From positions 21,756-85,755 of the IMG/VR virus record IMGVR_UViG_3300025789_000031: a DNA stretch of 64,000 nucleotides, one strand, 5' to 3'. The DNA is from a virus. Below, one piece after another: positions 17,647 through 27,907 of the stretch. Position numbers and translations under genes: made by a program. The notes below the pieces were generated by a model. It did no database searches, was not told the DNA's origin, and saw nothing but the letters and a program-made list of their open reading frames with translations. The stretch's first letter is position 1, and every line of letters starts with the position of its first letter.

Positions 17647-19743
17647 TTAATATCCCCAATATAATCCTGAATCTTCCCATCCCATTGTCCAACATGACAG
17701 TGTTCCACCACCAATTCCGGAAACAAACTGAATTTGTCCGCTTGTGTTGGTAAGTAAATATCTTGATAATGAGGTTGCAGAAGTTGCTATATCAAATCCA
17801 GCAGTTCCAGTAACATTAAACGATCCCGCAGGAGCACAAGTTTCATCTGTTGATGCCACGGTTGTATAATATGCCGATCCATTGAATCTGCTTATAGGCT
17901 TAACTCTGATACCGGTAGGAACACTTAATGTTAGTAGTTGCGGAACAGTTGATGTAATTACTTGGTTTGCATCATGTGCTGCGTTAGTTAAATAAAATAT
18001 ATTTCCGACACGGTGAGTAAAATTAACAAATTGTGTGCTGGCATTTACTGGAATTGATGCAATTCTTATATAATATCCACCAATATAACTACTTGGTAGA
18101 GTTGGGGAAGACGCCGATATAGACCCAATATAATCGCCTCCAGTTCCATCACTCTTACAGATAGCATAAATGTGATAGGTTCTGGAAGAACCAACTGTTC
18201 CGGTATCCAATAGCCCACCATTAGAACCTGCTGTCCAACTTGATGCGATTGATTTATTGGTTATAGCACCCGCTACAATTGTAAATGATCCTGTGCTATC
18301 TGGCATGGTATATGCAGTAAAACTAAGTGCTGGTGAAGATGTCGCATAATTACTAATTGTTCCCGGTCTCGGAGCACTTGCCCCACCTGCAGGTCCTCTT
18401 GACCCAGTTGCACCCGTAACACCAGAAAATGTAACATTAGCACCAGAATTCAACTGAGTCCCGGTTGCAGTTGCAACGTTTACGGATAATGAGGTTGTTC
18501 CCCCACCAGAAGTAATTCTTCCCTGAATTGAATTTCCACTATCAGTTGCAAATACATATGAACCGTTTGGAAATGCGGTTCCGTTAGATACTGGCAATAC
18601 AGTTGTGCTGGCAATGGTAGCATTAGCTGTGGTGGTAGTGGCACCTGGCCCTATAGGACCTGCTCCACCTTTTATGTTTGCAATCTGGTTCCAATAATCA
18701 TTATCACTGTTCTGTGTCCACTGAAACACATTTGAGGTTGTGGTATTAAGATACAAGTCCCCATAATTTCCATAATATGGTGTGGTAGGATTGGAACTGC
18801 CAGTTGTCCATATGGTGCCGGGTGTTCCTGTTGGAATTAAATACGTTCCACTAAAAGCCGTTACGGCATATGGCGATAAATTAATTACTTCAAGTACGCC
18901 GGAAGATGGGTTACTAAGAATTTTTACCAAGAGATTTAAACCACCATCAACAACAATACCATAACTTCCAGCAGGAAACTGACTAGAATTGGCAACATTC
19001 ATTGTTGATATGTTATAAAAGTAGCCAGAAGACCACGTGGAAGTCAATGTAGTATATGCATTAATTCCCGGAACACCAGCAACTATAATTGATGAATTTA
19101 CTGCCGCTATTTGTCCATATGTATTATTAGAATATAAATTTTGGAGGGTTAAGGTATTGGTTCCACCACCAGCAGTAATTAATCCATACATTGGTGGGGA
19201 ACTATTTAATAACACACATGTTCCATTTGTATACTGACTGCCATTTGCAACAACCACATTTGCGGTATTATTCAATACTGGAACGGTAAATGATGATGTC
19301 AATGTTGTAGCGCCGGGTGGAGATAAATTCACCCCATTACTGACGCGAACTACAGCAAGAGTATTACTTAATACCGCAATTGAAACAATGTCCACTGCTC
19401 CAGTTATTGAACTTAAAGAAGAGCCGGGTGGAACCGTATAATAGGTATCAAACACGAGATTATACCCGCCGCCTTGAGTTATGAATAAGTCAATTTGCAC
19501 GCCCGGTGTAAAAGATGAACCCCAATTTGGAAGGGTAATATTACCACTTGTAGTAAGTTCATATCTTCCATTAGTAGTGAATGAAATTGCACTCAATAGA
19601 CCACTAACTGTGCCAAGATTAATCGGAGTTATAGTTCCGAGAGCGTTTTGTGCGATAGTGGCAGAAGTATTAGCACTCGTGTTTGCAGAAATTGCCAGTT
19701 GTTCTGCCGCAACTGCCAGTGATTGGGCAATAATATCTGACAT
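17647..19743 (-). CDS. Tail-fibre protein with short collagen-like segments
   Basis: The product is 698 aa. The N-terminal helical part is rich in ASANTSANTSA. A Thr/Ser/Val-rich shaft has repeated NGTxFPNGSYV-type units, collagen-like GPIGPG and GVTGATGSRGPAG segments occur near residues 355 and 445, and the tip is beta-rich with conserved aromatics at its end (CWTMGWEDSGLYWGY). This fits a trimeric fibre. Its start overlaps the stop of the upstream gene by one base. Confidence 0.75.
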   Translation of the reverse strand: MSDIIAQSLAVAAEQLAISANTSANTSATIAQNALGTITPINLGTVSGLLSAISFTTNGRYELTTSGNITLPNWGSSFTPGVQIDLFITQGGGYNLVFDTYYTVPPGSSLSSITGAVDIVSIAVLSNTLAVVRVSNGVNLSPPGATTLTSSFTVPVLNNTANVVVANGSQYTNGTCVLLNSSPPMYGLITAGGGTNTLTLQNLYSNNTYGQIAAVNSSIIVAGVPGINAYTTLTSTWSSGYFYNISTMNVANSSQFPAGSYGIVVDGGLNLLVKILSNPSSGVLEVINLSPYAVTAFSGTYLIPTGTPGTIWTTGSSNPTTPYYGNYGDLYLNTTTSNVFQWTQNSDNDYWNQIANIKGGAGPIGPGATTTTANATIASTTVLPVSNGTAFPNGSYVFATDSGNSIQGRITSGGGTTSLSVNVATATGTQLNSGANVTFSGVTGATGSRGPAGGASAPRPGTISNYATSSPALSFTAYTMPDSTGSFTIVAGAITNKSIASSWTAGSNGGLLDTGTVGSSRTYHIYAICKSDGTGGDYIGSISASSPTLPSSYIGGYYIRIASIPVNASTQFVNFTHRVGNIFYLTNAAHDANQVITSTVPQLLTLSVPTGIRVKPISRFNGSAYYTTVASTDETCAPAGSFNVTGTAGFDIATSATSLSRYLLTNTSGQIQFVSGIGGGTLSCWTMGWEDSGLYWGY

Positions 19744-21124: not shown

Positions 21125-22849
21125 TTAGGATTTATTGATCGCATTCCATTTTTCAGCCATGGCATTAACAAACTCTGCGATATTAGACAATTTGTGTTGC
21201 TTCATATAATTGATTATCTTGATTGCATTTTTTCTGTCAGGTCCGGAACTTGGTTTTCTGGCGTTGGATAAATCATTTGCCAATCCTTGCGTCGTTTCTT
21301 TTTGGTAGTAATTGCTATCAAGATTACGAATAATATCTTTGGCTTTTGAACTTAGCTGAGACCGATCTGTAACCTGCATTACTTCAAGCCAAGGAATAAG
21401 CCAACCACGGTGTCTACTGAATGATCTACTAAACGATTGTTGTCCAGTAAGTGCGTTAACTTGAGATGTTTTGGATGTATCAAGATTTCTCCAAGCAGAT
21501 AGATCATTATAATAGTAAGCGGGAATATTACGCTTTTTTGCTTCTAATAGAGTTTTTCTTGCATGTGCCTTAGTATTTGGTTCTGCATCATCATTGATAA
21601 ACACATGAATAGCAGTAACGCCATTAATAGGAATAGATGGTTCTTTGCTAAACAACCTATCTTCTGCCTCATGTCTTCTATGATGAGATTTTGCTGGATC
21701 GCGGTTTTGCCAATAGTCTACTGGCTTTGATGGATATTTGCTGTTATAATAATTACCATCTAACACAAACATAACAGCAGATGAACCAACGTAATCATGA
21801 TATCCACCTTTTGAAGTTCGGGTAGTGCTTAAAAAGTAGTGATATCCTTTTGGCATATATTGTTGTTCAATGCTGCCCAATGCACTGCTCAGTTCAAAGT
21901 TTCCAGTTGCAAGAATATTTGAAGCAGCATATATGTTGGTATAGTGATATACGATTCTGCTTAGACTCTCATCAAGTTGCTGTGTATTTTCAGTATCCTT
22001 AGTGATGAGATATCGTTCACCGACTTCCTTCATGCTATAGCCGGGTATCGCCGCGAGTTTTTTCCATACCTCCTGCATCGCCTCAGATTGTATTTTATCT
22101 GACATGAGATTATATTGACTTAATAGCATCTTATAAAATGCCATAGCAAGCCCCTGTCTTCTATATTCAGAATTTAAATAAAACATAGTAACGGTTCTAT
22201 ATTCTGGGGCATGTTTTTTGGATACCATTACCAACCCAACTGGCTTATCACCATCCATAAAGAAATATGCATCACTATACCCAAATGGACCAACCAAAAG
22301 ATTTAAATTTCCCAACGATCCCGCTTCACTAAGTTTTCCAGCATCACTGAGCGACTTGAATTTATTTTGCATTTGTTCTTGCCAAAACTTGTCATCATCT
22401 TTACTGTGGGAAATTGTCTGCACTTCATTAACGGGTTCCCAGTGCATATTTTTGGATTTACCGATGTGATGGAATCCGTGTTTTTTGTAAAACTTGATCA
22501 GCTTGGCTTGTGATACTGCACCTTTATCCCAAGGGAACAGCGTAAGTGTAATATCATCTTGTTGTGCTAAATTCTGCAATATCTTCATCGCCTTTGAGCC
22601 CGCGCCAGAACGCAGCGGAGTTGCCTGAATCCATTTTAGTTCTACTTTGTTTCCCTGTTTAGGGGTAAGTTCAAACTGCACAATCTGCATGTCATCGCCC
22701 TTACCAAAAGTCATCAGACGATTACTACGACTGAGGGGACTTTCAGGAAACTTTTCATAGACCTTAACAACCCATTCTTTAGTCTTCTCTGAAGGCCCAA
22801 AGCCACTGAGTTTGATTGACTCTTCGGTTATGAATTCTGCTGCCCTCAA
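21125..22849 (-). CDS. Capsid-targeted GNAT-GNAT-ART-like fusion protein
   Basis: The product is 574 aa. The leader MRAAEFITE ends in I-T-E, the T4 prohead protease cleavage pattern. Residues about 30-136 look like a GNAT acetyltransferase (RSGAGSKAM near 80, FYKKHGF near 120). Residues about 150-283 look like a second GNAT (MFYLNSEYRRQGLAMAFYKML near 222). From 298, YHYTNIYAASNIL, FLSTTRTSKGGY and RRHEAEDRLF give a Y-H-Y / S-T-T / E pattern like ADP-ribosyltransferase folds. T4 Alt is a packaged ART, so delivery of a host-modifying enzyme is plausible. The activities are inferred. Confidence 0.7.
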   Translation of the reverse strand: MRAAEFITEESIKLSGFGPSEKTKEWVVKVYEKFPESPLSRSNRLMTFGKGDDMQIVQFELTPKQGNKVELKWIQATPLRSGAGSKAMKILQNLAQQDDITLTLFPWDKGAVSQAKLIKFYKKHGFHHIGKSKNMHWEPVNEVQTISHSKDDDKFWQEQMQNKFKSLSDAGKLSEAGSLGNLNLLVGPFGYSDAYFFMDGDKPVGLVMVSKKHAPEYRTVTMFYLNSEYRRQGLAMAFYKMLLSQYNLMSDKIQSEAMQEVWKKLAAIPGYSMKEVGERYLITKDTENTQQLDESLSRIVYHYTNIYAASNILATGNFELSSALGSIEQQYMPKGYHYFLSTTRTSKGGYHDYVGSSAVMFVLDGNYYNSKYPSKPVDYWQNRDPAKSHHRRHEAEDRLFSKEPSIPINGVTAIHVFINDDAEPNTKAHARKTLLEAKKRNIPAYYYNDLSAWRNLDTSKTSQVNALTGQQSFSRSFSRHRGWLIPWLEVMQVTDRSQLSSKAKDIIRNLDSNYYQKETTQGLANDLSNARKPSSGPDRKNAIKIINYMKQHKLSNIAEFVNAMAEKWNAINKS

Positions 22850-23256
22850 CGTTTGTATCCCTTGAACGGTCTGATGGGAGAGACATATTCAACATCCGAT
22901 TCTTCTTGACTGACCGGAGTGCTTACTGATTTCTTACCTTTTAAGTGAACTAACTTTAGTGCTTTGTCTATTACTGCACCAATATCGGGATCAAAAGAGG
23001 ATACTACTTCATGTTCGCCCCATTCACTTTCTGCTTCAAATGGTTCTTGATATTTGAGATTTTGAACCCCATCTTCTCTGCCACCATCTCCTCTGACAGC
23101 AGCAATACTTAAACCAAATCTATAAATTTTATAGAAATCTTGGTTAGTTAACTCGGGGATAATATAAGTATGCGGAAGTGGACGCCTTGCCAACTGTAAA
23201 CCATTTTCTCTATCATCTGGATCAAATGATTCAGTTATGAATTCGTGTGCTCTCAC
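22846..23256 (-). CDS. Small protein with capsid-targeting-like leader
   Basis: The product is 136 aa with a GTG start at 23256, AAAGGA upstream and a late box. MRAHEFITE is nearly identical to the leader of the next gene, which it overlaps by 4 bp. After the predicted I-T-E cut, the protein is soluble, mixed alpha/beta, with a basic tail. No enzyme motif is seen. It is probably an internal head protein. Confidence 0.7.
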   Translation of the reverse strand: MRAHEFITESFDPDDRENGLQLARRPLPHTYIIPELTNQDFYKIYRFGLSIAAVRGDGGREDGVQNLKYQEPFEAESEWGEHEVVSSFDPDIGAVIDKALKLVHLKGKKSVSTPVSQEESDVEYVSPIRPFKGYKR

Positions 23257-23276
23257 TATTTTTCCTTTATCTGTTG

Positions 23277-23283
23277 TATTTAT
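23277..23283 (-). promoter_or_regulatory. Late promoter-like box
   Basis: The minus strand reads GAATAAATACAAC, 20 nt before the GTG start at 23256. Confidence 0.55.
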
Positions 23284-23289
23284 TCCACA

Positions 23290-24627
23290 TCACATCACAA
23301 AAATTTTGCCAACAGAATTTGACAAGACATCATCAAACATATATTCCATATCCCTCGCCAATACTGAAGTAGCCTCTGTCCTATCGCTATCGTCACGATA
23401 TTCTGGCTTAAGATTTAGATATTTGCTTGGATTCCCCCAATTTTGGCGACCGTATCCCAAATTAGTTGGTAGTGGATTAAGTGTTACTTGTCCGGTCCCT
23501 AAATACTGAGCAAACAATTCATACAGGAATTCATATGGACGACGAATTTGGCCAGTCCGACTGCTACGTTGAGTGCCAATTGCGTTAAACAAGGCATTAT
23601 ATTCTGGTGTCATGTCCCACTTAACTGCTGAGCGGTTTGCAAAATCAAGATTTTTGTTACGAAGTTTTCCATAATATTGTTCAAGCATGTTATTAACGGA
23701 ACTAAAGAAGTGCTTTTCCGCTTCAGTCCAAACGTTCCAGTTTCTATTATTTCTGCTTCCTGCCTGAACAGCATGCCCGAATCTATGTGCCATAATCCAT
23801 GGTGTCATCATTACTTTCGCATCACCACTGTTACCTACAAACACCACAGTGATAGCATCAACACTCCCATCTAAGATTGGTTGCGCTTGGTCGCCAAACA
23901 TTTTCTTTAGCTGTTCGGGGCTTACTGAGCCAATTTCAGCATATTTACCAGTTCCGGGAATATTACTAAAGAATAGTCTGAAATCATAAGGAGTTTTCTC
24001 AAAAAACTTAACAGCTTTCAATTGATTTTTTGGATGAGGAACTAAACGCTTATCAACGCCTCTGAATGGTCCCGGCTTTTCAAAGTCACCTAACGGAGTA
24101 AACTGCTGTAACGCCATTTCATCAAGCTCTGGCGATTCTTTAATAAAGTCATTTTTGTTTTTCAAAAATATTTCTGAAATCCTCATACAAATTTCCCTGA
24201 TTTTTCTGTTTCCAGTTTCTAACTGTGTAAATTTACGTTGATTTTTAGTTTGTGTTGGATCAGTGTATCCACAGTATACTTTTTTAACAGGACTCGCATT
24301 AATTAGATCAGTGCAACTTTCACTATATCTATCATGCATAGTATCATTGCATGGGCTTAATGTGGTAACAATAATGCTACCTTCTGGAACTTTGCCATAT
24401 TTGGCTTCATATTTATTTAAGGCTTCACGTTCAGCATGAATCCACTTGTCATCTGATTTAGTGCTTATGCCAGTGACGATGTTGTTTTTTGGATCAAGGA
24501 CGGCTGCACCAACAAGACCATCCATCTCGGGATTATCATGGTGTTCCTCTATGACCATCTCACACAATTTGAGAAGGATTTTGTCCAGCTTTTTGTAGTT
24601 GTGGATTTCAAAGTCGGATGCTCTCAT
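23290..24627 (-). CDS. Deaminase-like plus HRxGH peptidase-like fusion protein
   Basis: The product is 445 aa. Residues 15-125 carry a cytidine-deaminase-type zinc site: HAE at 64-66 and PC at 92-93 with a second Cys at 105, giving the long Cys spacing seen in RibD-like members. The C-terminal part (about 170-445) belongs to a T4-like virion protein family with AHRFGHA at 280-286, which resembles a metallopeptidase helix but has Arg where HExxH has Glu. MRASDF begins like the capsid-targeting leaders but has no close L/I-x-E. It is probably virion-associated, and its activity is unknown. Confidence 0.68.
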   Translation of the reverse strand: MRASDFEIHNYKKLDKILLKLCEMVIEEHHDNPEMDGLVGAAVLDPKNNIVTGISTKSDDKWIHAEREALNKYEAKYGKVPEGSIIVTTLSPCNDTMHDRYSESCTDLINASPVKKVYCGYTDPTQTKNQRKFTQLETGNRKIREICMRISEIFLKNKNDFIKESPELDEMALQQFTPLGDFEKPGPFRGVDKRLVPHPKNQLKAVKFFEKTPYDFRLFFSNIPGTGKYAEIGSVSPEQLKKMFGDQAQPILDGSVDAITVVFVGNSGDAKVMMTPWIMAHRFGHAVQAGSRNNRNWNVWTEAEKHFFSSVNNMLEQYYGKLRNKNLDFANRSAVKWDMTPEYNALFNAIGTQRSSRTGQIRRPYEFLYELFAQYLGTGQVTLNPLPTNLGYGRQNWGNPSKYLNLKPEYRDDSDRTEATSVLARDMEYMFDDVLSNSVGKIFVM

Positions 24628-24630
24628 TGT

Positions 24631-25191
24631 TTATGAACTCCAAGACTTTCCAAGCCTTGTTGACATCACATTCCAGTTGATAATCTTCCAAAGTTCTTTG
24701 AGATATTTCTTCTTATCTGACCCATAATCTAATAAAAATGCGTGTTCCCACCAGTCAACAAGAAGCAGTATATCGTCTCGGACTTCATGGTTTTTGATTG
24801 TTTTAATTTTGCCGTCATAGGCAAGATATACCCAGCCTGACCCCTGAACCTTCATTGCTTCTTCAAGAAAATCATTTTTGAATTTATCAAAATTACCAAA
24901 GTGCTTATTTATAAAGGTATACATTGGTCCATTTGGTTTGTTGTTTTCTCTGACTTCTCTAAATTGTGGAAACCACATATTATGCAGGAATGCACCAGCA
25001 TAGTTAAAGTCAGGATCACCTTCACCATCATTGTAGCGTTGTGCATATCCTTTTGCTAACTTATTATAGTGAAGATCAAGCGTATCTTTACCCATAACAG
25101 GATTAACTTCACGTTCAGTGAAGTTAAGTGGGATGATTTCAATGTCTTGAGGCTTTGATTTTGCCTCCAAAAGGTTTATTATTTCGCGCAT
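24631..25191 (-). CDS. Fe/Mn superoxide dismutase with capsid-targeting-like leader
   Basis: The start is placed at ATG 25191, because the upstream TTG (25206) overlaps a late promoter box. The product is 186 aa. The leader MREIINLLE ends in L-L-E. The metal ligands of the Fe/Mn SOD family are all present: His41 (LHYNKLAKGY), His70 (FLHNMWF), Asp146 and His150 (DWWEHAF). A His (135) lies near where the second-sphere Gln sits in many SODs. It would convert superoxide to peroxide, protecting DNA in the capsid or the newly infected cell. The gene stops 3 bp before the next start. Confidence 0.88.
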   Translation of the reverse strand: MREIINLLEAKSKPQDIEIIPLNFTEREVNPVMGKDTLDLHYNKLAKGYAQRYNDGEGDPDFNYAGAFLHNMWFPQFREVRENNKPNGPMYTFINKHFGNFDKFKNDFLEEAMKVQGSGWVYLAYDGKIKTIKNHEVRDDILLLVDWWEHAFLLDYGSDKKKYLKELWKIINWNVMSTRLGKSWSS

Positions 25192-25195
25192 ACTG

Positions 25196-25202
25196 TATTT
25201 AT
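25196..25202 (-). promoter_or_regulatory. Late promoter-like box abutting the SOD start codon
   Basis: The minus strand reads GAATAAATACAGT followed directly by ATG. Spacing to the start codon is only 4 nt, so a transcript from this box would be leaderless or would lack the first codon. Confidence 0.45.
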
Positions 25203-25236
25203 TCAAGCATGCACAAATGTGTTTTGAAATATATCT

Positions 25237-25452
25237 TTACAGTCTTCTGACTATTCGTCCTTTTGAAACATCATAGGCGCTGATTTCAATTGATACCTTA
25301 TCACCCATAAGAATACGAATCTCATGTTGACGCATCTTACCGGCAAGATATGCTAAAATAGTCATATCATTTTCGAGTTTAACTTTGAAGGTAGTATTTG
25401 GCAAAACATCAATGATTTCGCCCTCTACTTTAATTGTGTCTTCTTTAGACAT
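25237..25452 (-). CDS. infA: Translation initiation factor IF-1
   Basis: The product is 71 aa, the normal size of bacterial IF-1. It has the S1/OB fold pattern through its whole length: [19 protein letters not shown], then [25 protein letters not shown] and a final [11 protein letters not shown]-1 binds the 30S A site during initiation. A phage copy could redirect initiation to late mRNAs, and the initiator tRNA at 5626 fits with that. It lies within the late virion gene block. Confidence 0.92.
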
Positions 25453-25464
25453 ATTAATTCTTAA

Positions 25465-26037
25465 TCACTTTTTTAGCAAATCCCATATTTCTTCTTTTTC
25501 TTTAATTTCTTTTTCAAGTTCGCGATATCTATCACCAAGTTCTTTTAATTCATCCCAGCGTTCTTCTAACTTAGTGTTTGGTCTCAGAATACCAAGACGT
25601 TCTTCAATTTTGTCCAACCTATCAGATAGTTTAACGCCCTTGACGGTAAGTTCTCCATTAATTGTTGTATCACCAGACACATTTAATGATGAACCGATTT
25701 GCGCAATAGATGGTGTGGACCAAATTGGACTGTTATAAGGAGAAGCTGCAGTTATTGCATGATTTGCCCATGTTGCGGAACTGCCAACGCCACCGCTATA
25801 TCCACCGCCACTTCCAACAGTATAAACAGTGCCCCCACCTCCAGAAAGAATTCCATTGCTTATACCATAAGATGTCTGGTGATTATATATGCTGTTTGAA
25901 ATGCTCATGCTATTTGCCAAACCGCTAATGACATTCCAGTCAATAGAATTCTGTTCTGTTTTGTCTTCTTCTTTAATATCACCATCATCATTTGTCATAT
26001 AAATTTCTTCGTCATCAATAATAATAGAATCAATCAT
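25465..26037 (-). CDS. T4-like virion protein with glycine-rich region and coiled-coil tail
   Basis: The product is 190 aa. The N-terminal part is acidic, and a Gly/Ser-rich stretch follows (about 67-95). A GDTTINGELTVKGVKLSDRL segment precedes the C-terminal coiled coil (about 130-190, rich in KELEE). This family is widespread in T4-like marine phages and is probably structural. It overlaps the next gene by one base. Confidence 0.7.
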   Translation of the reverse strand: MIDSIIIDDEEIYMTNDDGDIKEEDKTEQNSIDWNVISGLANSMSISNSIYNHQTSYGISNGILSGGGGTVYTVGSGGGYSGGVGSSATWANHAITAASPYNSPIWSTPSIAQIGSSLNVSGDTTINGELTVKGVKLSDRLDKIEERLGILRPNTKLEERWDELKELGDRYRELEKEIKEKEEIWDLLKK

Positions 26038-26219
26038 TAATTTGCCTTTTTTAAAAATAATTCACCATGCTCATCAATGCCTATTTCAACGGCATCACCC
26101 TCTTTCCAGCCTAAATATTTTAGAAGTGGAATGGGCACAGGTATGATCATGTCACCATTGGAATCTTCCTGAGTGATGACCTCATATCTCGTTTTGCTTC
26201 TTTTGGATTTGGATGACAT
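26037..26219 (-). CDS. AbrB/MazE-like small protein
   Basis: The product is 60 aa. DMIIPVPIPLLKYLGWKEGDAVEIGIDEHGELFLKK is the swapped-hairpin AbrB/SpoVT DNA-binding pattern. The N-terminus is basic. There is no toxin gene beside it, so it is more likely a phage regulator than an antitoxin. Confidence 0.75.
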   Translation of the reverse strand: MSSKSKRSKTRYEVITQEDSNGDMIIPVPIPLLKYLGWKEGDAVEIGIDEHGELFLKKAN

Positions 26220-26256
26220 ATTAATATTTAGTTAGAATACTAATCACCGATTTGTT

Positions 26257-27342
26257 TTACCAAGCACGGCATGACCAATAGCGCGCTTTCCATTTAGGTC
26301 CAGGATTTTCACAGTGATGTCTTGCTCTGAATGATTTACGATGACCTGGGCTATTTTTCTTTATACGCATATTTGGATCGCCAAAATTGACCTTTACTAC
26401 TTTACCGTTTGGCTTTTTAACATAGACTTTACTTTTGGCGACATCACCTGCCATTGGCTTATTAAGCGTAACTTTACGTCCTTGATACTCTGCTTCATAC
26501 ATGGGATCAACAGGTTTTCCGGTTTCGTCACGAATTTCATCGCCAGTGGTTGAATAATGATCATATGTTTTTTGTAGACGATCTTTTAGTTCTTTGATTT
26601 TATATTCGTCGCCGCTTTTAATTGCACGTTCCAAATACGAATTGAGTTTAGCTAACTGCGGATCAGATTTAATAGCATTTTCATATTCCATGTGACTAAT
26701 GCCAAGCATTGCTGCAATTGCTGCAGCACCACCGAGTGCCCAAGTCTTCCAGCCTTCTTCCAACTCTTCTTCATTTTTTCCATGAGCAAGTTTTTTAATT
26801 TCATTAAGTTCATCGTTATCAGCATCGGAGTCTAAATGATCATAGTTACCAGATTCAAGGGCATGAACAACTTCTTTCACCCAACCACTAACATCTGAAC
26901 TTCCAATTTCTTCAACGTCACCCACCTCATGTGCTACGTCTTCAATTGCTGCCATAATTCTTACCGGACCATACTTACCAACTAATTCTGGGTGCTGACG
27001 AAGAATTCTCCAACGAATAGCGCCTTCTGCAGGATGACTGTCATTACTGTCTTCACCCATCATGTATGAACCGGCAGATGATGCATCGGAGTCTGCACCC
27101 ATTTTCATGTATTCATCAACATTTTCTGATTCATTCAAAATACCATGGAAACCAAGAAACTCAGCAGCGTCTTCATCTAGATGAAGAATGATTCCATCTT
27201 CTGTAAAGCCCACTACTCCCGTTTCAATGACAAAATTTTCATTGAGTTCAATATCAACACGGTCATGAAGCTGAATAGTATCACTCTCATGGTTTTCTTC
27301 CATGCTGCGGATAAGTCTGTATAGGTCTCTGGTATCAGTCAT
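26257..27342 (-). CDS. Acidic T4-like protein with Cys/Trp C-terminal tail
   Basis: The start is ATG at 27342 behind CGGAGATTACA, with a late box upstream. The longer ORF has no ribosome site. The product is 361 aa. A strongly acidic central region follows an N-terminal AbrB-like strand set. A hydrophobic helix (about 195-210, LGGAAAIAAMLGISH) and a basic C-terminus ending with HHCENPGPKWKARYWSCRAW complete it. This tail recurs in marine T4-like phage proteins. It may be a head or scaffold-associated protein. Confidence 0.65.
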   Translation of the reverse strand: MTDTRDLYRLIRSMEENHESDTIQLHDRVDIELNENFVIETGVVGFTEDGIILHLDEDAAEFLGFHGILNESENVDEYMKMGADSDASSAGSYMMGEDSNDSHPAEGAIRWRILRQHPELVGKYGPVRIMAAIEDVAHEVGDVEEIGSSDVSGWVKEVVHALESGNYDHLDSDADNDELNEIKKLAHGKNEEELEEGWKTWALGGAAAIAAMLGISHMEYENAIKSDPQLAKLNSYLERAIKSGDEYKIKELKDRLQKTYDHYSTTGDEIRDETGKPVDPMYEAEYQGRKVTLNKPMAGDVAKSKVYVKKPNGKVVKVNFGDPNMRIKKNSPGHRKSFRARHHCENPGPKWKARYWSCRAW

Positions 27343-27364
27343 TGTAATCTCCGAAATATATCTA

Positions 27365-27907
27365 TTATTTATCACAGAAAACATTTTGTAACACATTCGT
27401 TACTTTATCCAGAGAATCCTCATCCGCTTGATATTTGATAGCAACACCACCGTGATTGCTCCAAGGAATAGTATTTCCCTTCCAATCATCAATTAAGACA
27501 TTTGGTGTTCCGTCAGGCTGAACTGCGTATTTGTATTTTTCGCGCTCAAAAATAACATTATCAGGCTTGATGATCACATGTTTTTGTAGCCATTCACGCT
27601 TACCTTTGATGCTTCCGCCTTCATCAAATCTTAGAGGGCTGCTTAAAATGGTATATCCACCAGCATATTTCTTCACGAGTTGGATAAGTGCGTTCGCTGT
27701 GGAAAAGGGCTTTACATCGCGAAACAAATGATACGCATCTGAATCCTTAAAGAAGCGTTCCCATTGATCATTAGTCATATCATTATAGTGTTCCACATCA
27801 CTAAATTCTGCGGCATCAGAATACAAATCTGCAAGAACGCCATCCATATCAACATAGCAAATAGGCTTGCCTATTTGTTCGGATTCTATTAAATCGTTTA
27901 TTTTCAT
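27365..27907 (-). CDS. HAD-family 5'(3')-nucleotidase-like enzyme
   Basis: The product is 180 aa. The HAD motif I YVDMDGVLAD places Asp at 20 and 22. Motif II is TILSSP and motif III/IV is NVLIDDWKGN, as in 5'(3')-deoxyribonucleotidases and related phage phosphatases. MKINDLIE|SEQ could be a capsid-targeting leader (L-I-E), so the enzyme may be packaged. ATG at 27907 coincides with the predicted start of transcription and has no Shine-Dalgarno. Confidence 0.8.
   Translation of the reverse strand: MKINDLIESEQIGKPICYVDMDGVLADLYSDAAEFSDVEHYNDMTNDQWERFFKDSDAYHLFRDVKPFSTANALIQLVKKYAGGYTILSSPLRFDEGGSIKGKREWLQKHVIIKPDNVIFEREKYKYAVQPDGTPNVLIDDWKGNTIPWSNHGGVAIKYQADEDSLDKVTNVLQNVFCDK
27366..27372 (-). 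promoter_or_regulatory. Late promoter-like box
   Basis: The minus strand reads GATAAATAATAG, 24 nt before the start at 27342 and overlapping the end of the upstream gene. Confidence 0.5.

Follow-up and report, generated by a model that had tools for sequence, protein, structure and literature searches.

A T4-type capsid-targeting code appears to load an arsenal of enzymes, a superoxide dismutase (SOD) among them, into the heads of uncultured, T4-related jumbo phages that form one lineage; judging from sequence, we place the probability of this reading at about 0.75. The case starts from four genes in a 64-kb window (the whole stretch of DNA analysed) of the 85,755-base virus record IMGVR_UViG_3300025789_000031, an 85.8-kb fragment of a freshwater giant phage. 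These genes encode a 574-residue protein with GNAT and ART-like parts, a 136-residue protein, an Fe/Mn SOD and a HAD/NT5C protein, and each opens with a short peptide that resembles the capsid-targeting sequence (CTS) of T4 head proteins.

Leaders at the starts of four genes

All four leaders are found on the minus strand, at the genes to which the initial annotation had assigned them: MRAAEFITE (22823–22849) on the 574-residue protein, MRAHEFITE (23230–23256) on the 136-residue protein and MREIINLLE (25165–25191) on the SOD, each with a predicted cut after E9, and the candidate MKINDLIE (27884–27907) on the HAD/NT5C protein. Their proposed likeness to T4 also holds, since they end in L/I-x-E and EFITE resembles the start of T4 IPII and IPIII, which the GenBank record gives as MKTYQEFIAE/A (here and below, the slash stands at the known or predicted cut). 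The MRAAEFITE type recurs on relatives. In this likeness the leaders of 21125–22849 and 22846–23256 are strong, that of the SOD is fair and that of the HAD protein weak, the weakest of the four.

Two of these genes use unusual start codons. For the 574-residue protein the start is a TTG overlapping the stop codon upstream, and an AAGGGA ends 8 nt ahead of this TTG; homologues of the protein start at ATG in G003 (MRAAEFITE) and at GTG in L297 (MRASEFITE). The 136-residue protein (22846–23256, minus strand) begins with GTG; upstream of it, AAAGGA ends at a distance of 6 nt and a late-promoter-like TAAATA box (23277–23282, minus strand) at 20 nt, so that both starts are accompanied by a ribosome-binding-like sequence. 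Because of these TTG and GTG starts, a leader-pattern scan of an ATG-only ORF set from the fragment itself gave no match (0 of 143). For the SOD, the open reading frame (ORF) spans 24631–25206 and the true start is most likely the internal ATG at 25191, the equivalent of which starts the majority of SOD homologues; the preceding ‘MNKYS’ is the late-promoter-like box GAATAAATAC read as codons, with TAAATA (25196–25201, minus strand) 4 nt before the ATG.

Recurrence of the tag on unrelated proteins

In three related SOD-bearing jumbo phages (G003, G026 and G028; 333–364 kb), the strict pattern M[RK]xx[ED][FILVMY][ILVM]xE was matched by 24 of 1352 ATG-called N-termini and by 2 of 6388 positions after internal Met residues, which served as the control (p = 1.2e-16). 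The 24 leader-bearing proteins form 12 blastp clusters, counted as unrelated where no link was present at E 1e-3. A DNA pattern for MRAxEFIxE was found in at least 120 IMG/VR stretches, as against 10 for a decoy with E and F swapped. These stretches hold 146 matches, 138 of them opening ORFs of at least 60 residues, and these fall into 31 clusters without links at E 1e-4; the largest has 77 members, 23 are single proteins, and at least one (L277) looks like a chance match. The earlier suggestion of a modular tag is borne out by the clusters in both sets.

The leaders are not chance, as both controls contradict it. It is very improbable that they reflect chance or the common composition of phage N-termini, a reading that draws on the strict pattern not being significantly enriched in CBB (1/564) or PA5oct (2/388). 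The pattern was likewise not significant in Phosso (1/493, from 20 stretches covering 381 of 469 kb), in phiKZ (1/344) or in about 160 of the 169 kb of T4 (0/231), where a looser leader pattern is enriched (10/231 vs 9/1019, p = 0.00075).

Cargo matches in the relatives comprise GNAT with ART-PolyVal, GNAT, GH19 (two), cell-wall hydrolase and DUF6267, and a kinase-like family matches phrog_15752, annotated as a protein kinase and inhibitor of host transcription. GP88 and amidoligase proteins carry the leaders MKIRHLLE and MRAKHFLDLYE, both outside the strict pattern. About half of the leader proteins scanned have no Pfam match over the cut-off, and for a 126-residue leader protein of G003 no match among isolates was found. 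The kinase-like cargo has a single distant isolate match, in EVB91_001 of Rhizobium phage RHph_I1_18, a phage with an S77 protease; EVB91_001 has no clear leader, and its neighbours EVB91_002 and EVB91_003 start MKSFSEHIAE/S (from TTG) and MISFKSHLNE/S.

Three further starts of this kind were observed. In G028 (C1:174187–175903, L152), three tandem kinase-like genes, of which the middle one alone was scanned, start MRINELLNE, MRITEIITE and MRINEIINE, with one gene between them and the major capsid gene. A protein of about 450 residues starting MQIKHLLE/A, without a Pfam match, is encoded at G003:C1:248687 (TAAATA 4 nt before the ATG) and at 18133–19551 of the window's own contig, outside the window, and is a candidate packaged protein. 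In T4, the DNA-end protector gp2 (NC_000866, 76061–76885) has the start MAIFQIINE/S, which resembles these leaders.

The superoxide dismutase leader lies outside the enzyme fold

The SOD gene (24631–25191, minus strand) passes the Pfam cut-off for PF02777 (E = 5.6e-25), with PF00081 below it, and Pfam, NCBIfam and solved structures concur on an Fe/Mn SOD. Among the best 80 of 306 homologues there are 61 distinct sequences, in which H41, H70, D146 and H150, which we take to be the metal ligands, are among the near-invariant columns. The enzyme domain aligns with solved SODs from residue 18 of the true protein (residue 23 of the ORF), which leaves about 17 residues ahead of the fold. Glu9 is kept in 60 of the 61 sequences while positions 3, 4, 6 and 10 vary, and [LI]xE is present in 58, with M or V replacing L/I in two others. 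A model from 22 sequences has a pLDDT of 87.8, with residues 1–8 below 50. The leader is thus outside the enzyme fold and its predicted cleavage site is conserved. The window SOD is 86% identical to that of G003, where the gene order around the SOD is the same. Of 59 distinct SOD upstream regions, 43 have a TAAATA box 4–6 nt ahead of the ATG.

These observations bear on a different explanation, in which the N-terminus of the SOD (and of the HAD protein) is a conserved extension of the enzyme, the SOD acts late within the cell as an auxiliary metabolic gene product and the MRAxEFIxE proteins alone are head cargo. Such an auxiliary metabolic role against oxygen radicals has been proposed for a viral Fe/Mn SOD (PMC12542629); the SOD leader, MR[DE]xIxLLE, differs from the EFIxE form, and HAD homologues are frequently without the cleavage site. 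However, the SOD leader precedes the fold and keeps its hydrophobic-x-E although its other residues change, one homologous SOD (in Vibrio phage 2.275.O) is without it, and the gene adjoining the SOD in G028 carries MRAKEFLPE. We regard the extension as somewhat unlikely, and packaging of the SOD through its leader as very probable.

Homologous Fe/Mn SODs also occur in the Pseudomonas jumbo phages PA5oct and MIJ3, and that of PA5oct has a leader-like start, MNDSIKKYISIAE followed by A (an ISIAE/A site). Directly upstream of the window SOD lies a homologue of translation initiation factor IF-1 (25237–25452, minus strand; PF01176, E = 1.2e-21), with a similar protein, by eye, at the same place in G003 and G028; genes for IF-3 and S21 are near the SOD in 2.275.O, and for S21, ClpX and ClpS in PA5oct.

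A gp21-type protease in large relatives

The initial annotation proposed a search for a gp21-like protease and further leader proteins, and both were found in large relatives; no such protease was found in the fragment of the window phage. The search for the gp21-type S77 protease covered 31 of 80 SOD loci and 16 of 120 leader loci. S77 is present in 11 of the 31 SOD-bearing records, including all 10 of at least 200 kb, a figure that holds fewer independent cases since G017, G018 and G019, whose SOD loci (L049–L051) gave an identical match in the SOD homologue search, look like assemblies of one phage. It is also present in 7 of the 16 leader-bearing records, namely all 7 that reach 150 kb, two of them counted among the SOD records as well. 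Every searched contig of that size bearing a leader or an SOD has the protease. G003, a relative of the window phage, has S77, as do PA5oct, 2.275.O, CBB, Phosso and T4, and phiKZ does not. The major capsid proteins of G003, G026 and G028 have a QLLAE/S site of their own.

The 574-residue and 136-residue proteins

The 574-residue protein (21125–22849, minus strand) consists of the leader, a GNAT-like domain (residues about 10–140), a GNAT domain (about 150–290) and an ART-like domain (about 286–574). The GNAT domain exceeds the Pfam cut-off at residues 195–249 (PF13673, PF00583), and the GNAT-like domain is supported indirectly, through a match to phrog_10691, a family also matched by a G028 protein that Pfam identifies as GNAT. 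The parts are separable: the first ∼140 residues form a leader-bearing protein by themselves in L299 and L035; L296 and L297 lack the middle GNAT and have the GNAT-like domain joined directly to the ART-like domain; and in L170 a leader stands immediately before the ART-like domain. A leader-like start of MRAxEF type, or MRINELLTE or MKIEELLIE in distant relatives, exists for the GNAT-like domain in 19 of 20 rows (proteins of about 140–615 residues), a count for which leader-matching start candidates were ranked first and true starts not established. Four of five rows with the ART-like domain have a leader. In two phages without S77 (JA13, Lu11) the ART-like domain is without a leader; of two with S77, K566 starts MKKFNEFANELAE followed by A, and SCTP-2 has no clear leader.

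Eight homologues of the ART-like domain share invariant H, R and E-x-E-x-R positions. This part gave no Pfam match, no profile match to an ART-PolyVal protein and no convincing solved structure, the predicted model of the whole protein is poor (pLDDT 51), and a plasmid search with it gave nothing. Searches with the 136-residue protein gave no match in Pfam to E 0.1, and none in PHROG or NCBIfam to E 0.01.

Observations against a packaged arsenal

The reading of the initial annotation, in which these enzymes are packaged in the head and injected, is partly supported. Together with the lack of enrichment in CBB, PA5oct and Phosso, the following observations weigh against the packaging of these enzymes by a T4-type code. 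The preference at the residue after the cut (P1') is modest (61/135 vs 445/1352, p = 0.006). The sole leaderless SOD among the 61, that of 2.275.O, belongs to an S77 phage. In the 85.8-kb contig itself no S77 or gp23 match was found, so its presence in the window phage is presumed from relatives. One GNAT-like row (L040) is without a cleavage site, and the fifth ART-like row (L249) was removed from the support, as it is a fragment in which the ‘leader’ MRENEFIFE/DRIF is the E-x-EDR stretch of the ART-like domain itself. The GNAT-GNAT-ART-like fusion first described stands in part: one GNAT passes Pfam, while the ART-like label is unconfirmed by profile and structure tests. TAAATA boxes, considered as a mark of leader genes, were rejected (6/31 vs 117/1321, p = 0.056, not significant).

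The HAD protein is a further point. The 5'-nucleotidase-like gene at 27365–27907 (minus strand) matches PF06941 (E = 1.2e-8) and phrog_2643, 5'-3' deoxyribonucleotidase (E = 6.4e-19), and MKINDLIE is indeed its start, but this leader is not conserved: among the best 80 of 198 homologues, 19 of 48 distinct N-termini carry the hydrophobic-x-Glu site, which the other 29 lack, and the G028 homologue starts MKITELAKSKP, without the site. Even without the Glu, many homologues begin M[RK]A-x-[ED]-L, and we speculate that these might be targeted without being cut.

The mass-spectrometry (MS) notes of PA5oct are not associated with leaders. The PA5oct SOD record carries the note ESI-MS/MS, which is a hint; the same note stands on 93 proteins (90 recovered in our ORF set), and it does not prove packaging because the sample is unnamed and enzymes such as ribonucleotide reductase, thymidylate synthase and FtsH are included. 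Leader-type starts are not commoner among the MS-noted proteins (2/90 vs 7/298), two other patterns were also non-significant, and no MRAxxF[IL]xE start is found among the 388 PA5oct ORFs. Loose M...[LI]xE patterns, tried as a marker, gave little signal (10/90 MS-noted vs 39/298 in PA5oct; no enrichment in CBB or PA5oct) and were rejected.

Proposed route of the cargo

By analogy with T4, from which targeting, cutting and injection are all drawn, a 9-residue N-terminal peptide, M[RK]xxE(F/L)(I/L)xE, would bind the prohead core, a gp21-type S77 protease would cut after the leader Glu (L/I-x-E) to free the mature protein inside the head, and the cargo would leave the head with the DNA into the bacterium. 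The GNAT/ART-like and 136-residue proteins would be packaged in this way, and the HAD protein may be. An injected SOD would clear superoxide during the first minutes after infection, ahead of phage gene expression, such a role at DNA entry being our inference. It is reasonably probable that these leaders form a general protein-delivery code, in which a cleavable 9-residue address loads dozens of unrelated enzymes into the head, and SOD and host-modifying enzymes (ART, GNAT, the kinase of the host-transcription-inhibitor family and wall hydrolases) enter with the DNA.

Alternatively, the leaders may bring proteins into the prohead core for head assembly or DNA packing rather than as injected effectors. 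Head assembly in a T4 IPIII mutant proceeds at roughly half the rate (PMC9026906). However, some of the cargos are enzymes of effector type (ART-PolyVal with GNAT, GH19, cell-wall hydrolase and the kinase of the host-transcription-inhibitor family) and the T4 internal proteins (IPs) and Alt are injected (PMC9026906, PMC12373910); we hold a purely structural role to be quite unlikely.

If delivery of injected enzymes is the correct reading, the leader allows proteins that are carried in the head and injected to be recognised from sequence alone in phages not yet culturable, and turns genes without an assigned function into testable candidate effectors. A particle-borne phage SOD, if true, would be a sign of a superoxide burst, or of a defence based on superoxide, at the moment of DNA entry.

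Neighbouring genes and TAAATA boxes

Between the 136-residue protein and the SOD lies a gene for a 445-residue deaminase-like protein (23290–24627, minus strand; PF00383, E = 1.1e-11). It starts MRASDFEIH, in which no L/I-x-E site is present. Its extra C-terminal part contains MAHRFGHAVQ, which by eye resembles a metallopeptidase-type H-x-x-x-H motif; that part gave no convincing family match in a Pfam scan. The product of 26257–27396 (minus strand) ends in a basic, Cys-containing tail, KSFRARHHCENPGPKWKARYWSCRAW, within a phrog_7595 match; similar tails presumably occur in marine T4-like phages.

T4 late promoters read TATAAATA. In 23 and 42 genes of G003, G026 and G028 (L104–L160), TAAATA precedes the ATG by 4 and 5 nt, respectively, over a background of 5.6 genes per distance at 9–34 nt, and a Shine-Dalgarno-like 4-mer is found in 5 of these 65 genes as against 577 of 1280 others (p = 2e-10). 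No such peak at 4–5 nt was seen in T4, CBB, Phosso or PA5oct. This arrangement suggests late promoters of T4 type, with transcripts that begin at the AUG itself and so are leaderless.

Comparison with known systems

The mechanism proposed here is already known; what is new is the lineage, the enzyme cargo and the SOD. For a capsid-targeted phage SOD, no report was found in the literature searched, in which subscription papers were largely out of reach; a search aimed at this combination gave one unrelated paper. Packaging into the T4 head needs no more of IPIII than its first 10 residues, of which 4 and 7 serve targeting and 8 and 10 cutting (PMC9026906). CTS-addressed injected proteins are established in T-even phages, in which the leader led to the discovery of many ip genes (PMC12373910), and a review has already proposed that the CTS lets T4-like phages load various proteins into their heads (PMC9026906). 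The leaders described here are like the gp21-cut CTS of IPI, IPII and IPIII and the Alt propeptide in being short N-terminal L/I-x-E peptides, with the EFIxE form, in being shared by unrelated proteins and in the presence of an S77 protease in large relatives. They differ in having 9 rather than 10 residues, in occurring in uncultured jumbo phages and in their putative cargo, which in T4 consists of small restriction inhibitors and here often of enzymes, including SOD.

In other phages, injection is ascribed to GNAT and ART domains, and the polyvalent proteins described in PMC9503650 and PMC7824862 similarly combine ART-PolyVal with GNAT, kinase-like and hydrolase domains, which are predicted to be injected; they are, however, single giant multidomain proteins, whereas those found here are separate, smaller proteins with a predicted cleavable leader. 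The PA5oct SOD shares Fe/Mn homology and a leader-like start with the window SOD, yet the two are 39% identical and the MRAxxF[IL]xE start is absent from that phage's ORF set. A particle-borne phage SOD would find its parallel in chlorovirus PBCV-1, whose Cu/Zn SOD (A245R) comes from a late gene and is carried in the virion; infection by a chlorovirus lacking SOD left cells with more superoxide (PMC7019647). PBCV-1 differs in being a virus of eukaryotes with an SOD of another class, for which the accessible part of that paper reports no CTS leader; the two systems would be alike in carrying the enzyme within the particle, as predicted here for the window phage.

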